From a virus, in IMG/VR virus record IMGVR_UViG_3300032293_000981, positions 1 to 37,191 of that record: a DNA stretch of 37,191 bases. One strand, 5' to 3'. Made by a program: the position numbers and the translations under genes. How positions within the stretch are numbered: the stretch's first letter is position 1; every line of letters begins with the position of its first letter. Under the pieces are notes generated by a model. It searched no databases. It saw nothing but the letters and a program-made list of their open reading frames with translations, and was not told the origin of the DNA. Positions 4,386 to 11,810 of the stretch are shown in pieces.

Positions 4386-4475
4386 CTAAAATTGACGACT
4401 ATCTTTGTAGTAGTTGTATATTCCTACTCCGGCTGCTATGATAATCAATTGTAGTTTTATTAAGAGTAGTTTCAT
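4386..4475 (-). CDS. 29-residue single-span membrane peptide
   Basis: A short frame starting MKLLLIKLQLIIIAAGVGIY and ending YYKDSRQF. Residues 3-20 form one hydrophobic membrane segment, with a charged C-terminus. Its ATG overlaps the TGA of the upstream 69-residue gene in an ATGA junction, which supports translational coupling. Small one-span peptides are common in phages and may modulate host membrane proteins or lysis. The function is unknown. The remaining 45 bases up to the HTH-HNH gene start hold no further feature that I can support. Confidence 0.55.
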   Translation of the reverse strand: MKLLLIKLQLIIIAAGVGIYNYYKDSRQF

Positions 4476-4681
4476 TCTATTCCACTAAGTTTAAGAAACT
4501 CTTTATCATCGAATGTTACCTTCTCAGAGTAGAACTTTTGCATCATCTTATCAGCAATCTCTTTTCTGTTATCCATATCATTTACCATAAGGAGTATTTC
4601 AGCTACACCTACAACCATATCTCTATCGAAATCATGATTCGGTTCTTCAACTTCTTTTAATAAATGATTAAGTCTTAACAT
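4472..4681 (-). CDS. Hypothetical protein with capsid-targeting-like leader (69 aa)
   Basis: A 69-residue acidic helical protein starting MLRLNHLLKEVEE. This resembles the MKLKQLLNE leaders of the genes at 5341-6348 and 6362-6661, with a possible prohead-protease site after Glu10 (LKE). The rest (DMVVGVAEILLMVNDMDNRK, then ADKMMQKFYSEK) appears as amphipathic helices. No known domain. If the leader acts like the T4 capsid targeting sequence, the product would be packed in the prohead and trimmed. This is inference. Confidence 0.65.
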   Translation of the reverse strand: MLRLNHLLKEVEEPNHDFDRDMVVGVAEILLMVNDMDNRKEIADKMMQKFYSEKVTFDDKEFLKLSGIE

Positions 4682-5340: not shown

Positions 5341-6348
5341 CTATTGTATATAAGCATTCAATTCATAAGAATTCTTCATACCATAAACTTGAATCTGAAG
5401 TTTCTTCTTTTGTACCTTACCATCTTTAGATAGTTCGATATCAAATCTATTAGTTTTACCTTCCGATGGTTTACGAGGTCCCATACCTATCTTCGTAAAT
5501 GCATCATCGTTATTTATTTCATATCCTTTTTTCTCCGCATATGCCCTAGCTGCTTCAATAGCTGATGTATATGATTTGTGATATACTTCGTAATCAGATT
5601 TTGCTTCCATTACACCTTTAAGTCTCATTGATTCATTCTTCATATATCCTTTGTTATCGAATATAGATTGAATTTTATCTGCTTCTCTATGGAAACCATT
5701 CATTCTTAAAGTGAATGCTATACCATCCGCTGCTTCAACTCCATTCCATCCTGAAGATGCTGCTACTTTTCTAGCAAATTCATGTGTACCATCTTCTCCA
5801 CCCCAATATTCTGAACTATCTACTCCATTTTTTCTTATATCCGCCATTTTCTCTTTATACTTAGGGTCATCCATCGAAGGATAATTAACCTTTTTAGCCC
5901 ACTCAGGCTTTCCTTCAATAGATGCAATCAATTCTCTTGCCTCATCGTGAAAATTAGCATCAGTTAATGCTTCAACTGCTGCCTGATACATTGCTTTCTT
6001 ATATCCATCATTACCCAACTTATTTGGAGTAATACCAAATTCTTCTGCGTTTTTCTTAGCCGCTTTGTTTACAGTAGGATTACCTGGTCTTTTCTTAGCC
6101 GGCTCTGATTTAGGTTCTTCTTTTTTAGGCTCTTCCGCTTTTTTAGGTTCTACTTTTTTAGAACTTGCAGAAGCTCCACCTTTAGGTTTAGATACCGAAT
6201 CTGATTTTTTAGCAGCTGCACCAGCAGTTGTTTCTTTACCTGCTATGTTTACCTTCGTAGTATCTCTAACTTTGTGCTTTTCTTTATAAGCATCAAAAGA
6301 AGCTTGAGAACCAAAATCTATTTCGTTTAATAATTGTTTAAGTTTCAT
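5341..6348 (-). CDS. Putative capsid-internal protein with MKLKQLLNE leader
   Basis: A 335-residue protein. It opens with MKLKQLLNE, resembling the T4-type capsid targeting sequence with a prohead-protease site after Glu9. Residues 38-100 are low complexity, rich in Lys, Ala, Pro and Ser. Helical domains follow (about 100-235), then a second possible cleavage site VME at 248. The C-terminal domain (about 250-335) has GKTNRFDIEL and KLQIQVYGMKNSYELNAYI, a module I associate with structural proteins of marine T4-like phages. It is probably injected with DNA or left inside the capsid. Protease cleavage is inferred, not shown. Confidence 0.65.
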   Translation of the reverse strand: MKLKQLLNEIDFGSQASFDAYKEKHKVRDTTKVNIAGKETTAGAAAKKSDSVSKPKGGASASSKKVEPKKAEEPKKEEPKSEPAKKRPGNPTVNKAAKKNAEEFGITPNKLGNDGYKKAMYQAAVEALTDANFHDEARELIASIEGKPEWAKKVNYPSMDDPKYKEKMADIRKNGVDSSEYWGGEDGTHEFARKVAASSGWNGVEAADGIAFTLRMNGFHREADKIQSIFDNKGYMKNESMRLKGVMEAKSDYEVYHKSYTSAIEAARAYAEKKGYEINNDDAFTKIGMGPRKPSEGKTNRFDIELSKDGKVQKKKLQIQVYGMKNSYELNAYIQ

Positions 6349-6361
6349 TTATCTTATTATT

Positions 6362-6661
6362 TTAAAATCCTATTGATACCGTTTTGTTATCAAATTCTAT
6401 CCAACGTATTTTTAATGCAATCAAATCTTTTAAATCTGATGGGTCTAATCTCCAATTAGATTGTGACATTTGAATATCCGCAATATTACCATGTATACCA
6501 TCCCAAATTGTAATAACCTTACCACCAAAAAACTTTACAAATTCTTTTACTTGCTTTTGTTTAGCAGAATCTAATTCAGTAAGTTTAATTTCTGATGCTT
6601 CTGTTATCGGTGTTTGATTAACTACTTTATTCGTTTCGTTTAATAATTGCTTTAATCTCAT
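6362..6661 (-). CDS. Hypothetical protein with MRLKQLLNE leader (99 aa)
   Basis: A 99-residue protein starting MRLKQLLNET, nearly identical over nine residues to the leader of the next gene downstream. A second site of the (I/L)xE-Ala form is present at residues 19-22 (ITEA). The body includes DSAKQKQVKEFVKFFGGKV and a beta-rich end WIEFDNKTVSIGF. No known fold. The gene begins 1 base after the polyprotein-like gene stop, so the three are one translational unit. Likely a processed capsid-internal protein by analogy with T4 internal proteins. Confidence 0.65.
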   Translation of the reverse strand: MRLKQLLNETNKVVNQTPITEASEIKLTELDSAKQKQVKEFVKFFGGKVITIWDGIHGNIADIQMSQSNWRLDPSDLKDLIALKIRWIEFDNKTVSIGF

Positions 6662-6662
6662 C

Positions 6663-8078
6663 TTAATTGCTGAATTGTGATATTACTTTTTTCTGAATAG
6701 GATTACCTGGTTTTCCAACTAATGCAGTTACAAAATCCATTCTATCTTTTAAATTACCTTTCTTTAAAAATAGGTATAATTTGTTTGAATTTATGTTATT
6801 CTTTTCCAAAAAATCTTTAACTGCGTTTGCTCTAGAAGCAGTTAAACCTGCTATACCATTTGAATCTGCTGATAAATCTTCGTTAATATGATGTTCATGT
6901 AATCCACCACATCCACAATCATGATTCTCATTACATCCACAATCATGCTCTTCGTTTACCGATTCCTCTAATGACCATTTTTTTAACCAATTTAACCAAT
7001 CTTTAGTATGCCAATCGTTTCTTTCTCTTGCCCCTAAATCCCAGTATTTGTTATATACATCTTTGAATAAGGATTTTAATTTTCCAAATCCAGCAATTTT
7101 AGATGCAACAGTTGCGAATTCACTTTCAGTTGAATAATGTTCCATTGAATTGGATAATATATCAACCAAAGCTAACATAGATTTATCGTTACCCATTGCT
7201 TCGTTTACTGATTCGTTTCTCTTATCTAATTCAAAATATATTTTGTTTTTAACTTTCTGAAATGTATCAGCTGCCAATTTAGCATTACCAACAAATCCCA
7301 TTTCCAATCCTATTTCACTTGCTCTAACACCTTTCTTAGCTAATGCCATAATTTGTGCTGCAACGGGCTTAGATACTACTTGAGTTGGAGTATCTACGTG
7401 GATAACATGCTTAAACTCTTCAGTTACTACCGATTCCATTTTTGAACGAATCTTACTTGCTATAGTTGATAATTGAGATTTATCAATTCCAATCGCATCT
7501 ATTACTTGAGCCAATAATTGTAATTTTGCATTATTACTTAACTTTGAATCTTTTATTTTATCAATAGCCAATTGTAATTTAGCCTTTACAGCTGCCGGTA
7601 TTGTTGCCGGTGGTAATTCAGCTGCATCTTCTTTTACTGAACTGTATTTTTCTCTTATTTCTTTTAATCCTAATTCATCTTCAAACTCTAGTATATCTCT
7701 GTAATCCGCATCAAAAAGTTCCTCTTCTACATCTTTTCTAGATGCTTTAGGGTCTTTACAAATTACTGCACCTATTTTCTTTCTAGTGAATGAACCACCT
7801 CTATCATATAGTTTCATAATATGTTTAAAATGGACATCATTGCTGCTCATTTCATTCATACCACTCTTTTCTCTAATTACTTCTCTAACTACAGATTTAA
7901 GTTGTTCTTTAACATGGTCAGGTAAACCATCGTGAGATGTAGATGCAAAATCTTTAGCATCACTATCTTTCATATCCGCTGATACCTTTGCCACTTCCGG
8001 TGATGCAGGAGTTTCTCCCTTATCTGCGGCGTGAACCATTCCCATAAATCGTTGTTGTGCTTTACTTACTGCTGGCAT
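6663..8078 (-). CDS. DUF3008-like, modular polyprotein-like virion protein
   Basis: A 471-residue mosaic. Residues 1-60 (MPAVSKAQQRFMGMVHAADK and FASTSHDGLPDH) match the DUF3008 pattern of small phage proteins. Short linker motifs ending in Glu separate domains: GMNE (76), VVTE (220), SVNE-Ala (293), SVNE (376) and HINE (400). Between them lie apparently independent helical modules (about 77-140, 160-215, 230-288, 296-370, 405-471). A Cys/His-rich patch, HDCGCNENHDCGCGG followed by LHEHH (378-397), could bind a metal. The Glu-ending linkers resemble sites of T4-type prohead protease, suggesting a polyprotein cut in the capsid. Confidence 0.65.
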   Translation of the reverse strand: MPAVSKAQQRFMGMVHAADKGETPASPEVAKVSADMKDSDAKDFASTSHDGLPDHVKEQLKSVVREVIREKSGMNEMSSNDVHFKHIMKLYDRGGSFTRKKIGAVICKDPKASRKDVEEELFDADYRDILEFEDELGLKEIREKYSSVKEDAAELPPATIPAAVKAKLQLAIDKIKDSKLSNNAKLQLLAQVIDAIGIDKSQLSTIASKIRSKMESVVTEEFKHVIHVDTPTQVVSKPVAAQIMALAKKGVRASEIGLEMGFVGNAKLAADTFQKVKNKIYFELDKRNESVNEAMGNDKSMLALVDILSNSMEHYSTESEFATVASKIAGFGKLKSLFKDVYNKYWDLGARERNDWHTKDWLNWLKKWSLEESVNEEHDCGCNENHDCGCGGLHEHHINEDLSADSNGIAGLTASRANAVKDFLEKNNINSNKLYLFLKKGNLKDRMDFVTALVGKPGNPIQKKVISQFSN

Positions 8079-9633: not shown

Positions 9634-9948
9634 TTATCCGTTAATTTGTCTCTTAGTCTTTGGAAGTGATTTTTCTAACTTATCATTTTCTTTGGTAAGG
9701 AACTCAACTTTAACACTCAATGCTGCTACTTCTCTTGTAAGTTCTAACACCATAGTACGAAGTTCATCTTTCTCTTTTGAACTATTTTCCAATAAGGCTT
9801 CCAATTTAGAGATACGGTCTTTACAATCGTGTCTGATAAACTCATCATCTCTTTCTTTATTTAGTGCTCTCTTTTCGTAATATCTCCAAGCACCTGTTCC
9901 ACCTAATACGGTAATTGCCGTAATTAATACTGAATATAAGTTTTCCAT
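9634..9948 (-). CDS. Membrane-anchored coiled-coil protein
   Basis: A 104-residue protein with an N-terminal hydrophobic segment (residues 5-20, SVLITAITVLGGTGAW), then a long charged coiled coil (about 25-95) with regular Leu/Val heptads, and a Lys/Arg-rich end. Topology (single N-terminal anchor and long helix) is shared with some phage lysis-accessory and membrane scaffold proteins. No catalytic motif. Its start overlaps by one base the stop of the next gene upstream (9948). The exact role cannot be told. Confidence 0.65.
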   Translation of the reverse strand: MENLYSVLITAITVLGGTGAWRYYEKRALNKERDDEFIRHDCKDRISKLEALLENSSKEKDELRTMVLELTREVAALSVKVEFLTKENDKLEKSLPKTKRQING

Positions 9949-10253
9949 TATTTATTACCTTTTTTCATTGCTTCAGCCCAATCTTTAATCATTTTCATAA
10001 CATCAGATGGAATTTCTATATCTCTGATACTGATTTTTCCATAAGGGTCAATGTGTGCAATGATTCTATAATCACCATGCTCTTCTTCTGCTCTGTTCCA
10101 TATAGTTAAACCATTTCCCATATATCCAGCTCCAACATCGTATTTCTTTGCCTCTTTTACTACCTCAGCTTCTACTACAGGAGTTGGTGAATTTTTACTC
10201 ATCCCTAAAGAAGGAAGAGTTACTATACTATTTACTATATCCATTAATCTCAT
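9948..10253 (-). CDS. Hypothetical phage protein with processed-type N-terminus (101 aa)
   Basis: A 101-residue protein. The N-terminal third has two possible prohead-protease sites of the VxE-Ala type (VVEA at 26-29, and VKEA at 32-35). The rest (KKYDVGAGYMGNGLTIWNRA, then EEEHGDYRIIAHIDPYGKIS) forms a compact domain seen in similar form in other large-phage hypothetical proteins, and a final helix DVMKMIKDWAEAMKKG. It begins 7 bases after the previous gene. Likely part of the capsid-internal block. Confidence 0.6.
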   Translation of the reverse strand: MRLMDIVNSIVTLPSLGMSKNSPTPVVEAEVVKEAKKYDVGAGYMGNGLTIWNRAEEEHGDYRIIAHIDPYGKISIRDIEIPSDVMKMIKDWAEAMKKGNK

Positions 10254-10260
10254 TGTAGTG

Positions 10261-11013
10261 TTATTTTAGTTTGGTTAATCTTAGTGATTTGTTTACTGAT
10301 TCATCCTTTCTAGAGAAAAAATACTTTCTTAATCCTTCTAAATCTTTTACCACTCTCTGGAGGGTATTTTTTACACCACTTTCTAATTTCTCATCTTTTA
10401 AATACATACCTAACACTGCGGTTGCACCATTGATAAATTGATAAGCATTATCTGCTTTAACATTATATGATACTTCATTCACCGATTCCATTTTCAAACT
10501 TCTCTGTGCATTAGTTAAACCACTAACGATAGATTTGATAGCCTTTTTAGTTGCATCTTCATCCTTAGAAAGAACTCTTTTCTCTAATTCCTTAGTATTT
10601 GCTTTTAAAAATTTAACAAATACGTTATGAATAGTATCCCAATCTTTAACTTCCTCACTTATTGATTCGGCATTTAAAGTAGGGAATCTATCTGCTCCAT
10701 TAATACCAGCTTCGTTTGTTCCGTATTCGTGATAGTTAGATGATGCTTGTGAAATGAAGTTCTCAGCGTTTGTAATATGGTCTTGAATCCAAGCAGGAAT
10801 ATCCTTTTCGTTTTCTCCCATCTTAGCTTTCAATTCAGTTGCCATCTTAATGATAGTATCCAATGAATTGTTTGCCATAGAAACTTCGTGGTCTTCTTCC
10901 TCTTTAACGATAGTTTCAACTTGTGGTGTAAAAGCTCTAACATATGGGTTTGATACCACTTGTCCAGGTTTTGCTCCCAATGTTTGCATTATTCCTTTTA
11001 AATTCATATTCAT
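10261..11013 (-). CDS. Putative processed capsid-associated protein
   Basis: A 250-residue mostly helical protein. Residues 42-100 (SMANNSLDTIIKMATELKAK, then DIPAWIQDHITNAENFISQA and SNYHEY) form a module that I recognise in several marine T4-like phage proteins. Possible cleavage sites follow: GTNE-Ala (101), SISE (120), SVNE (180), and a decayed copy SVNK (239-242). These separate three segments, about 42-100, 121-178 and 181-237. The same SVNE linkers appear in the 471-residue protein, so both may share a protease. Function in packaging or in the capsid core is inferred. Confidence 0.6.
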   Translation of the reverse strand: MNMNLKGIMQTLGAKPGQVVSNPYVRAFTPQVETIVKEEEDHEVSMANNSLDTIIKMATELKAKMGENEKDIPAWIQDHITNAENFISQASSNYHEYGTNEAGINGADRFPTLNAESISEEVKDWDTIHNVFVKFLKANTKELEKRVLSKDEDATKKAIKSIVSGLTNAQRSLKMESVNEVSYNVKADNAYQFINGATAVLGMYLKDEKLESGVKNTLQRVVKDLEGLRKYFFSRKDESVNKSLRLTKLK

Positions 11014-11018
11014 ATTAT

Positions 11019-11810
11019 TTATCTAGCTAATATTTTCCATGCCATGTTAACCATAGAAATTAAACCACCATTAACGTATTTGATTCTATTTGAAGTTCCT
11101 AACCCATTATATATGTGAACAACTGCGTTTGCACTTTGTACATCTACAGTTACAGTCTTTCCGTTTTTACCATCTCTGATTTTCTGAGCCTGATGATTCT
11201 TTACTATATCTTTCAATGCAGTAATTACATCTGGTTCTGTGTCCGGTGAAGTTAATGCTTCCTTATCTAATTGTTTTCTTGTATTATTAACGTCATCTTC
11301 AGTAGGTGAGCCATTTATTGTTCCTCCAGGAAAGGTTAATCCAGTTCCTGCTGCCGGTAATGCAATTTCACTATGAGGTGCTTTAATACCATGTCCCTTC
11401 TTTATATTAGAAAGTGTTTGTAAAGCATTCTTTAATCTATCTTGAAATAATTTCTTTTGTTCTGCTGATTTAGTATCCGATAGTTTCTGCTTCAAAGCCT
11501 TAATTCTATCGTTTATTTTTTGGATTCTATCCCCTTCTTCTGATTCTTCTAACCCACTTTCTACGAATTTTTTGAGTTCGGATTTAACAACCATATTATT
11601 GATTGCTTCTTTCACCTGGTCTTTATTCAACCCTATCACTTTTACTTCACCCTCTTCATTTGTGTATGCAGCGTGCTTTAACCCCATATCCTCTAAATAC
11701 TTAATGAACTTCTCGCCAATAGGAGACTGTTCTTTTTCTTTAGTTTGAGGGAGACCTTGAGCTACTCTCTGTGGTTCTCCTCCTTCTTTAAGTTTTTTCT
11801 TATTATTCAT
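11019..11810 (-). CDS. Hypothetical protein, possible capsid-core component
   Basis: A 263-residue protein. It starts MNNKKKLKEGGEP, which has a possible LKE-Gly protease site at residue 9. A charged coiled-coil region (about 80-140, rich in Lys/Gln/Leu) is followed by a Gly/Pro-rich segment (LPAAGTGLTFPGGTINGSP) and a C-terminal domain with DVQSANAVVHIYNGLGTSN and YVNGGLISMVNMAWKIL. No known domain is recognised. It is the first gene of its run; the third GTGTATATAAA element lies immediately before its ATG, which would leave almost no leader. Confidence 0.6.
   Translation of the reverse strand: MNNKKKLKEGGEPQRVAQGLPQTKEKEQSPIGEKFIKYLEDMGLKHAAYTNEEGEVKVIGLNKDQVKEAINNMVVKSELKKFVESGLEESEEGDRIQKINDRIKALKQKLSDTKSAEQKKLFQDRLKNALQTLSNIKKGHGIKAPHSEIALPAAGTGLTFPGGTINGSPTEDDVNNTRKQLDKEALTSPDTEPDVITALKDIVKNHQAQKIRDGKNGKTVTVDVQSANAVVHIYNGLGTSNRIKYVNGGLISMVNMAWKILAR

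Follow-up and report, generated by a model that had tools for sequence, protein, structure and literature searches.

Background

The internal proteins of bacteriophage T4 are known as the products of single genes, and one of them, IPI*, can disarm a restriction enzyme of the host. Core proteins of the gp67, gp68 and gp22 kind are cut by gp21 at several Glu sites, and in the T4 gene order 67 and 68 stand just before gp21. Cleavage by T4 gp21 takes place after L/I-x-E, a site that the protease itself carries as LIE-9, and gp21 also removes a capsid-targeting peptide of 10-19 residues from the internal proteins (PMC9026906), the mature IPI* being 76 aa long (PMC9026906, PMC3012670). For cyanophage S-SCSM1, mass spectrometry of phage purified on CsCl gave 45 virion proteins, and a 69-aa DUF3008 protein is annotated as one of them, together with its neighbours SSCSM1_89-92; the authors allow for carry-over of some non-structural proteins (PMC9602691). 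The DUF3008 family was not named in any paper searched.

In this study, we report the analysis of a 471-aa ORF in a 37,191-nt stretch of viral DNA (IMG/VR record IMGVR_UViG_3300032293_000981, referred to here as the window), which a first-pass annotation had proposed to encode a cleavable capsid polyprotein, its compact modules being separated by short Glu-ending stretches (joints). Sequence comparison places this protein in a large family of mosaic proteins, and what had been seen at first was one member of a much larger system of exchangeable cassettes. We consider with good confidence that the protein is a prohead-core polyprotein, which gp21 would cut into small internal proteins of the T4 kind that are probably ejected into the host.

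Methods

A blind search was made among 2.9 million viral contigs for the joint DNA occurring twice, 190-220 nt apart, and contigs were not chosen by context. For the module census, 105 polyproteins were divided into 443 segments. Ends of homologous blocks were obtained by BLAST between different proteins with the S-phi-x-E joints masked. Head genes in about 25 further contigs were identified by phmmer using queries from L008 and L009, and a rough base rate was taken from arbitrary pieces (up to 20 kb) of three relatives, 2 of 16 of which held a head gene.

Results

The 471-aa protein and its parts

The first-pass annotation had placed the ORF at 6663-8078 without giving a strand; the coordinates were correct, and the ORF lies exactly there on the minus strand, the plus strand being riddled with stops. 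The DUF3008-like domain suspected in it matched Pfam PF11450 over residues 3-56 (26.2 bits against a gathering score of 24). No other Pfam match rose above the cut-off, and the strong PHROGs matches, at the DUF3008 end, belonged to families without a known function. All five linkers that had been described are present at the residues given (GMNE76, VVTE220, SVNE293, SVNE376 and HINE400), and a sixth joint, SVKE150 between modules 2 and 3, had been missed. The reported recurrence of SVNE in the 10261-11013 protein was also seen, as ESVNE176-180, together with ESISE116-120. The coordinates of all parts are listed in Table 1.

The 471-aa protein contains 15 [VILM]xE sites versus 8.3 in shuffled sequences (P 0.007) and four S-[VILM]xE sites versus 0.7 (P 0.004). 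Some of the 15 fall within modules, so for this protein alone the counts are only suggestive; nine lie elsewhere than at the joints, several of them within modules, and the motif by itself therefore does not define a cut. The strict T4 form L/I-x-E is matched by HINE only, GMNE, VVTE, SVNE and SVKE having M or V at P3. The protein lacks a short N-terminal capsid-targeting peptide ending in a cleavage site and starts with DUF3008 instead, and it is therefore filed here as working like an internal protein, not as an internal protein.

In the AlphaFold2 model (pLDDT 68.5, pTM 0.36) the modules are helical, the model being weak overall because MAFFT misplaced several module fragments in the alignment. 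It had been suggested that a structure prediction might show whether the linkers are disordered: pLDDT fell below 50 at residues 216-220, 294-297 and 370-410, regions that take in VVTE220, the start after SVNE293, SVNE376 and HINE400, whereas the joints at 76 and 150 were not clearly disordered. Foldseek searches with the model found nothing below an E value of 0.001 in PDB or BFVD, and no known function was found for any module in the Pfam, PHROGs and Foldseek searches. Matches by VIA-align were middling and helical (Z up to 6.5), and the top one, a chain of a cyanophage pre-ejectosome, was not trusted. The T4 late promoter motif (TATAAATA) occurred on the wrong strand only and not above chance. 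The Cys/His-rich segment between two of the joints is conserved in L002 and L004 and is possibly a metal-binding peptide.

Table 1. Parts of the 471-aa gene and neighbouring genes, in window coordinates
Feature	Position	Strand	Remarks
Modular polyprotein ORF, 471 aa, whole gene	6663..8078	-	ORF; relatives with shuffled modules
Module 1, DUF3008, residues 1-56	7911..8078	-	Pfam profile; N-terminal domain in many family members
Joint GMNE, Glu76	7851..7862	-	Relatives have NLTE, NLME, KINE or VITE before the same module
Module 2, residues 77-147	7638..7850	-	Helical, pLDDT up to about 95
Joint SVKE, Glu150	7629..7640	-	
Module 3, residues 152-216	7431..7625	-	
Joint VVTE, Glu220	7419..7430	-	Relatives have IME, ITE, LNE or INE before the same module
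Module 4, residues 221-288	7215..7418	-	In at least 5 different parent proteins; present or absent between sister phages
Joint ESVNE, Glu293	7200..7214	-	DNA GAATCAGTAAACGAA
Module 5, residues 294-373	6960..7199	-	
Joint ESVNE, Glu376	6951..6965	-	DNA GAATCGGTAAACGAA
Short Cys/His-rich segment EHDCGCNENHDCGCGGLHEH	6891..6950	-	Predicted disordered
Joint HINE, Glu400	6879..6890	-	
Module 6, residues 405-470	6669..6866	-	Largest census family: 15 members, 12 different left neighbours
Second polyprotein, 250 aa, joints ESISE120 and ESVNE180	10261..11013	-	
Stand-alone module form (AKKYDVGAGYMGNGL...)	9948..10253	-	Fused behind ESVNE in L004 and L044
99-aa protein, starts MRLKQLLNE	6362..6661	-	Capsid-targeting-like N-terminus
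335-aa protein, starts MKLKQLLNE	5341..6348	-	
69-aa protein, starts MLRLNHLLKE	4472..4681	-	
263-aa protein	11019..11810	-	Last module (EPDVITALKDIV...) follows ESVNE in L137 and L158

Relatives as mosaics of modules

Pieces of the 471-aa protein recur in other orders in nine IMG/VR loci, in proteins of 349, 667, 335-502 aa and other lengths whose joints read ESVNE, ESINE, ESLSE, ESITE, ESVTE and similar. Profiles made for each module found the same module in different parent proteins. Module 2 occurs also in L077 and within the 1449-aa protein of L009, module 5 in another parent protein, encoded within the head cluster (L006, L007, L091, L092), and the last module of the 5341-6348 protein, which follows VME, in the L157 polyprotein. 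Module 4 is preceded in all listed cases by a hydrophobic-x-Glu triplet (VTE, IME, ITE, INE, LNE or VNE) and followed by another. The separate compact modules of the first-pass annotation are thus borne out by observation, being separable and shuffled at Glu joints in relatives.

In the census, the 251 inner segments had a median length of 76 aa (quartiles 69 and 95), and the 349 non-first segments fell into 185 families, of which 120 had a single member. Among the 31 families with three or more members, 30 had two or more different left neighbours. One ORF can hold up to about eight joints. A single-copy version was flagged as a candidate for 16 families; several of these candidates are short ORFs with a targeting-like start (MKSTRLTSILNE, MISLQELLKE, MIKLKDILNE), and a few are larger ORFs, which count less. 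The modules of ten polyproteins gave very little in Pfam and PHROGs besides DUF3008 and families of unknown function, and the L045 polyprotein had no match in annotated phage genomes.

Three very large proteins are encoded upstream of gp17, at L009:7325-11671 (1449 aa), L031:9934-14172 (1413 aa) and L059:37-2298 (754 aa). Their domains include a cytidylyltransferase-like one (L009, L031) and DUF5661 (L009, L059); the L059 protein holds an ESVNE joint, and that of L009 holds module 2 as mentioned above. They may be packaged, given that virions of cyanophage S-SCSM1 contained its NMNAT. A short recurring module, CWKGYKQVGMKxKGGKxVPNCVP, often stands beside a joint (L076, L079, L094 and others, from IMG/VR and cyanophage proteins). 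In cyanophage S-PRM1 (L221:7788-8414), a 208-aa protein with the start MKTYNQFVLE-A, which we take to resemble a T4-type capsid-targeting peptide, adjoins a 707-aa protein with other Glu joints, and cyanophages may have the same cassette system with different joints.

Association with T4-type head genes

The module proteins of L006-L008 are encoded in a head cluster of the T4 type, alongside genes that match Peptidase_S77 (gp21) and Gp23 above the Pfam cut-offs. About 25 further contigs carry the family within a gp17-gp20-...-gp21-...-gp22-gp23 cluster, the DUF3008 or module-3 protein standing mostly directly before gp21 and in some before gp22. The N-terminal DUF3008 domain is often encoded directly upstream of gp21 in family members, and module 3 is in many phages part of the protein encoded directly before gp21 (as a tandem pair in L079). 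The blind search matched at least 120 viral contigs, and 80 loci among the matches listed were examined, 79 of which encode a protein with two or more joints. T4 head genes were present in the fetched stretch of 71 of these 79 loci among the matches listed, and gp21 in 51. The linkage of the family to head clusters and to gp21 in relatives is therefore an observation. Within the blind set, joints were found in genes beside gp21 in 19 of 51 cases upstream and 14 of 48 downstream, over a background of 0.19, an excess that is modest because the background is already head-cluster DNA.

It had been suggested that a prohead protease gene be looked for elsewhere in the genome. None was detected in the 37-kb window, and in relatives gp21 is found beside the family. 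Neither gp21 nor gp23 was detected in the window or in the 141-kb relative G004, both of which are fragments. In the clade of the window the polyprotein is encoded outside the head cluster: in G011 (88 kb), a member of this clade, gp21 is directly preceded by a module-3-like protein, and some 76 kb separate it from a near relative of the 10261-11013 protein. The same head cluster with module proteins is also present in L089, a jumbo-size contig of 273,997 bases, and the system is therefore not limited to genomes of T4 size.

This setting bears on the alternative that survives best, namely that these proteins belong to the assembly core only, as T4 gp67, gp68 and gp22 do, and are cut up and expelled without a role in the host. 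The cleavage step is common to this alternative and to the explanation preferred here, and the difference lies in the fate of the modules. Several relatives occupy the T4 67/68 position, directly before gp21, as such a core protein might. In T4, moreover, the core proteins are fragmented and the head loses most of the pieces (PMC9026906). Modules that are conserved and domain-like, about 76 aa long, very diverse and optional between sister phages nevertheless fit accessory internal proteins better than an essential scaffold, and the DUF3008 protein of S-SCSM1 is retained in virions (PMC9602691). A core-only role is unlikely in our view, though it cannot be set aside.

Form of the joints

The gp21 of these phages starts with MK.LLIE and has a second site, K[VIL]xE, near the N-terminus, the middle residue of which varies while P3 stays V/I/L and P1 stays Glu. 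Their gp23 carries an invariant QLLDE before AT, a presumed propeptide site; we take QLLDE-AT to be the end of the gp23 propeptide, a position judged from alignment with T4. In G011, gp21 carries KINE and gp23 carries QLLSE before AT. The likeness to prohead-protease sites claimed for the linkers is supported by these proteins: gp21, with LIE and [VIL]xE near its N-terminus, and gp23, with QLLDE or QLLSE, have sites of the same form as the joints. Acceptance of V at P3 by the gp21 of these phages is inferred.

Targeting-like N-termini of the form [KR][LI]..[LI][LIV]xE were found in 90 of 782 ORFs near head genes (11.5%) versus 17 of 1324 elsewhere (1.3%), while shuffled N-termini gave 2; the enriched ones near head genes are of the M[IK]KLxxLLxE type. 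Three genes beside the 471-aa ORF (4472, 5341, 6362) have such N-termini.

A [VILM]xE triplet stood no more than 6 aa from 50% of the ends of homologous blocks, versus 23% of random positions, with [VILM]xD, xK and xS depleted and x[GA] not enriched. Overlapping motifs were enriched as well (E.[VILM] 1.9-fold, [VILM]..E and [KR].E 1.6-fold), which is expected in part because the same joint can be read with an offset. In the module-anchored test, the frequency of [VILM]xE was 0.77 upstream (0.34 in shuffled sequences) and 0.83 downstream (0.37). Since modules had first been excised at S-phi-x-E joints, the subset without them is the fairer part of this test, and here the values were 0.47 versus 0.29 upstream and 0.51 versus 0.30 downstream; control motifs showed no comparable excess. 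The joints keep [VILM]xE whatever the P2 residue. Glu at P1 is kept only slightly better than other Glu (0.72 versus 0.66), and conservation at P5 is equally high (0.72), a feature not explained by a protease motif. As far as comparison of sequences can tell, the data on the joints go far beyond chance.

These results also weigh on the idea that the protein is packaged and remains uncut, either as a multidomain core scaffold or as a 'polyvalent' ejected protein in which the ESVNE joints are mere flexible linkers. Polyvalent multidomain proteins delivered with the DNA have been described (PMC5512222). The joints are charged and polar, several have low model confidence, and the equal conservation of the P5 and P1 Glu would suit linkers. 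A flexible linker, however, needs neither a Glu at P1 nor a hydrophobic residue at P3, and it is [VILM]xE that is enriched at block ends, not its D, K or S counterparts. The same site form stands at the gp21 N-terminus and at the end of the gp23 propeptide, with gp21 encoded in the same cluster. We find an uncut protein rather improbable.

Joint DNA and exchange of modules

The joint DNA (GAATC[A/G]GTAAACGAA) is more uniform than codon use explains: the Val codon is GTA in nearly all of 41 joints (background 0.48) and the Asn codon AAC in about three quarters of them (background 0.32). This uniformity fits recombination between joints. L006 and L008 have about 94% identity in the aligned stretch, yet L006 exceeds L008 by three in-frame modules: those of 285 and 216 nt are cut at joints, and that of 162 nt runs from a joint to the C-terminus of the protein. 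At the 80 loci examined among the matches listed, all 141 joint spacings were multiples of 3 and open in the frame of the joint. In-frame exchange at the joints is thus observed.

The joint might, then, be primarily a DNA repeat, GAATCAGTAAACGAA spreading or recombining as a short homology arm with the encoded peptide incidental. Both the conservation of its DNA beyond codon use and the gain and loss of modules at joints would agree with this; joints of quite different DNA nevertheless keep the peptide form (GMNE, NLTE, HINE, VVTE, ETIME), and the upstream excess of [VILM]xE persists without S-phi-x-E joints. As the sole explanation we judge it very improbable, and a role as DNA repeat can coexist with cleavage. 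Least credible is a cytoplasmic protein outside the head, for which the metabolic neighbours in the window (SAM decarboxylase, HAD-like) and the lack of gp21 in its 37 kb could be cited, against head clusters in most relatives, capsid-targeting-like N-termini in window neighbours and a DUF3008 relative in the virions of cyanophage S-SCSM1 (PMC9602691).

Discussion

According to the preferred explanation, a cleaved prohead-core polyprotein, the 471-aa protein of this T4-related phage would be carried into the prohead core, its DUF3008 end probably acting as a targeting domain, which is inferred and no more than a guess. A gp21-type protease would then cut after Glu at the hydrophobic-x-Glu joints 76, 150, 220, 293, 376 and 400, releasing within the head five or six compact proteins of about 70-80 aa, close in size to mature T4 IPI*. 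Like the T4 internal proteins, these would most likely remain beside the DNA and be delivered into the host together with it. Modules could be gained, lost and moved without harm to their neighbours, because all end in the same kind of joint and the joint DNA is conserved.

Packaging and cleavage of the 471-aa protein are strongly indicated and have not been shown. For cleavage, retention and ejection we rely on inference from T4 and from the joint form. A host-directed function is inferred as well, and so is the delivery of internal proteins at a fixed ratio, which the first-pass annotation named as the advantage of a polyprotein. The weak points are the absence of cleavage data, V at P3, the conservation of P5 equal to that of P1, and the lack of a known function for any module. 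A broader proposal is that one short sequence serves as both prohead-protease site and recombination joint in a cassette system, open-ended in content, by which aquatic T4-related phages join up, exchange, package and inject a very large number of small proteins, hardly any of them annotated and many perhaps with anti-defence roles; this is possible, and the case for it falls somewhat short of persuading us.

Although gp21, the internal proteins and the targeting peptide are already known, the literature searched contained no cassette polyprotein with an exchangeable joint; most subscription journals were outside its range, and the support for novelty is therefore weak. A polyprotein built of modules around a defined joint would account for the ability of phages to carry many internal proteins and to change them fast. 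With hydrophobic-x-Glu joints in head clusters as a simple sequence handle, small phage proteins without annotation could be collected by the hundred. These proteins probably enter the host as infection begins, and the question of where aquatic phages encode new anti-defence proteins would become testable. The string of swapped modules also suggests how one virus head could be loaded with many small internal proteins.

Compared with known systems, the proposed polyprotein would be like T4 IPI, IPII, IPIII and Alt in prohead packaging, cutting by gp21 (in T4 after L/I-x-E), small mature proteins and diverse accessory content (PMC9026906, PMC3012670), and neighbouring genes of the window have N-termini of the MKLKQLLNE type. 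Unlike the T4 internal proteins, which are encoded one per gene and have a 10-residue targeting peptide, the modules here are strung together in a single ORF, and DUF3008 forms the start of the 471-aa protein. The location of the gene between gp20 and gp21 in many relatives is shared with T4 gp67, gp68 and gp22, which in turn do not consist of recombining conserved modules that are optional between sister phages. With the cyanophage DUF3008 (PF11450) proteins it has the N-terminal domain in common, that of S-SCSM1 consisting of DUF3008 alone in its 69 aa (PMC9602691).

Polyvalent proteins are also multidomain, with shuffled architectures, and are thought to enter the host with the phage DNA (PMC5512222). 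They carry recognisable enzymatic domains, whereas the small modules described here, linked through putative prohead-protease sites, almost all lack a match in Pfam or PHROGs. Inner-body or ejection proteins of the phiKZ and SPN3US type are internal to the head and are cut after x-x-Glu by a relative of gp21, sometimes at several sites (PMC10052503, PMC9026906); those cuts remove propeptides from one mature protein, whereas the cuts proposed here would release many separate proteins.
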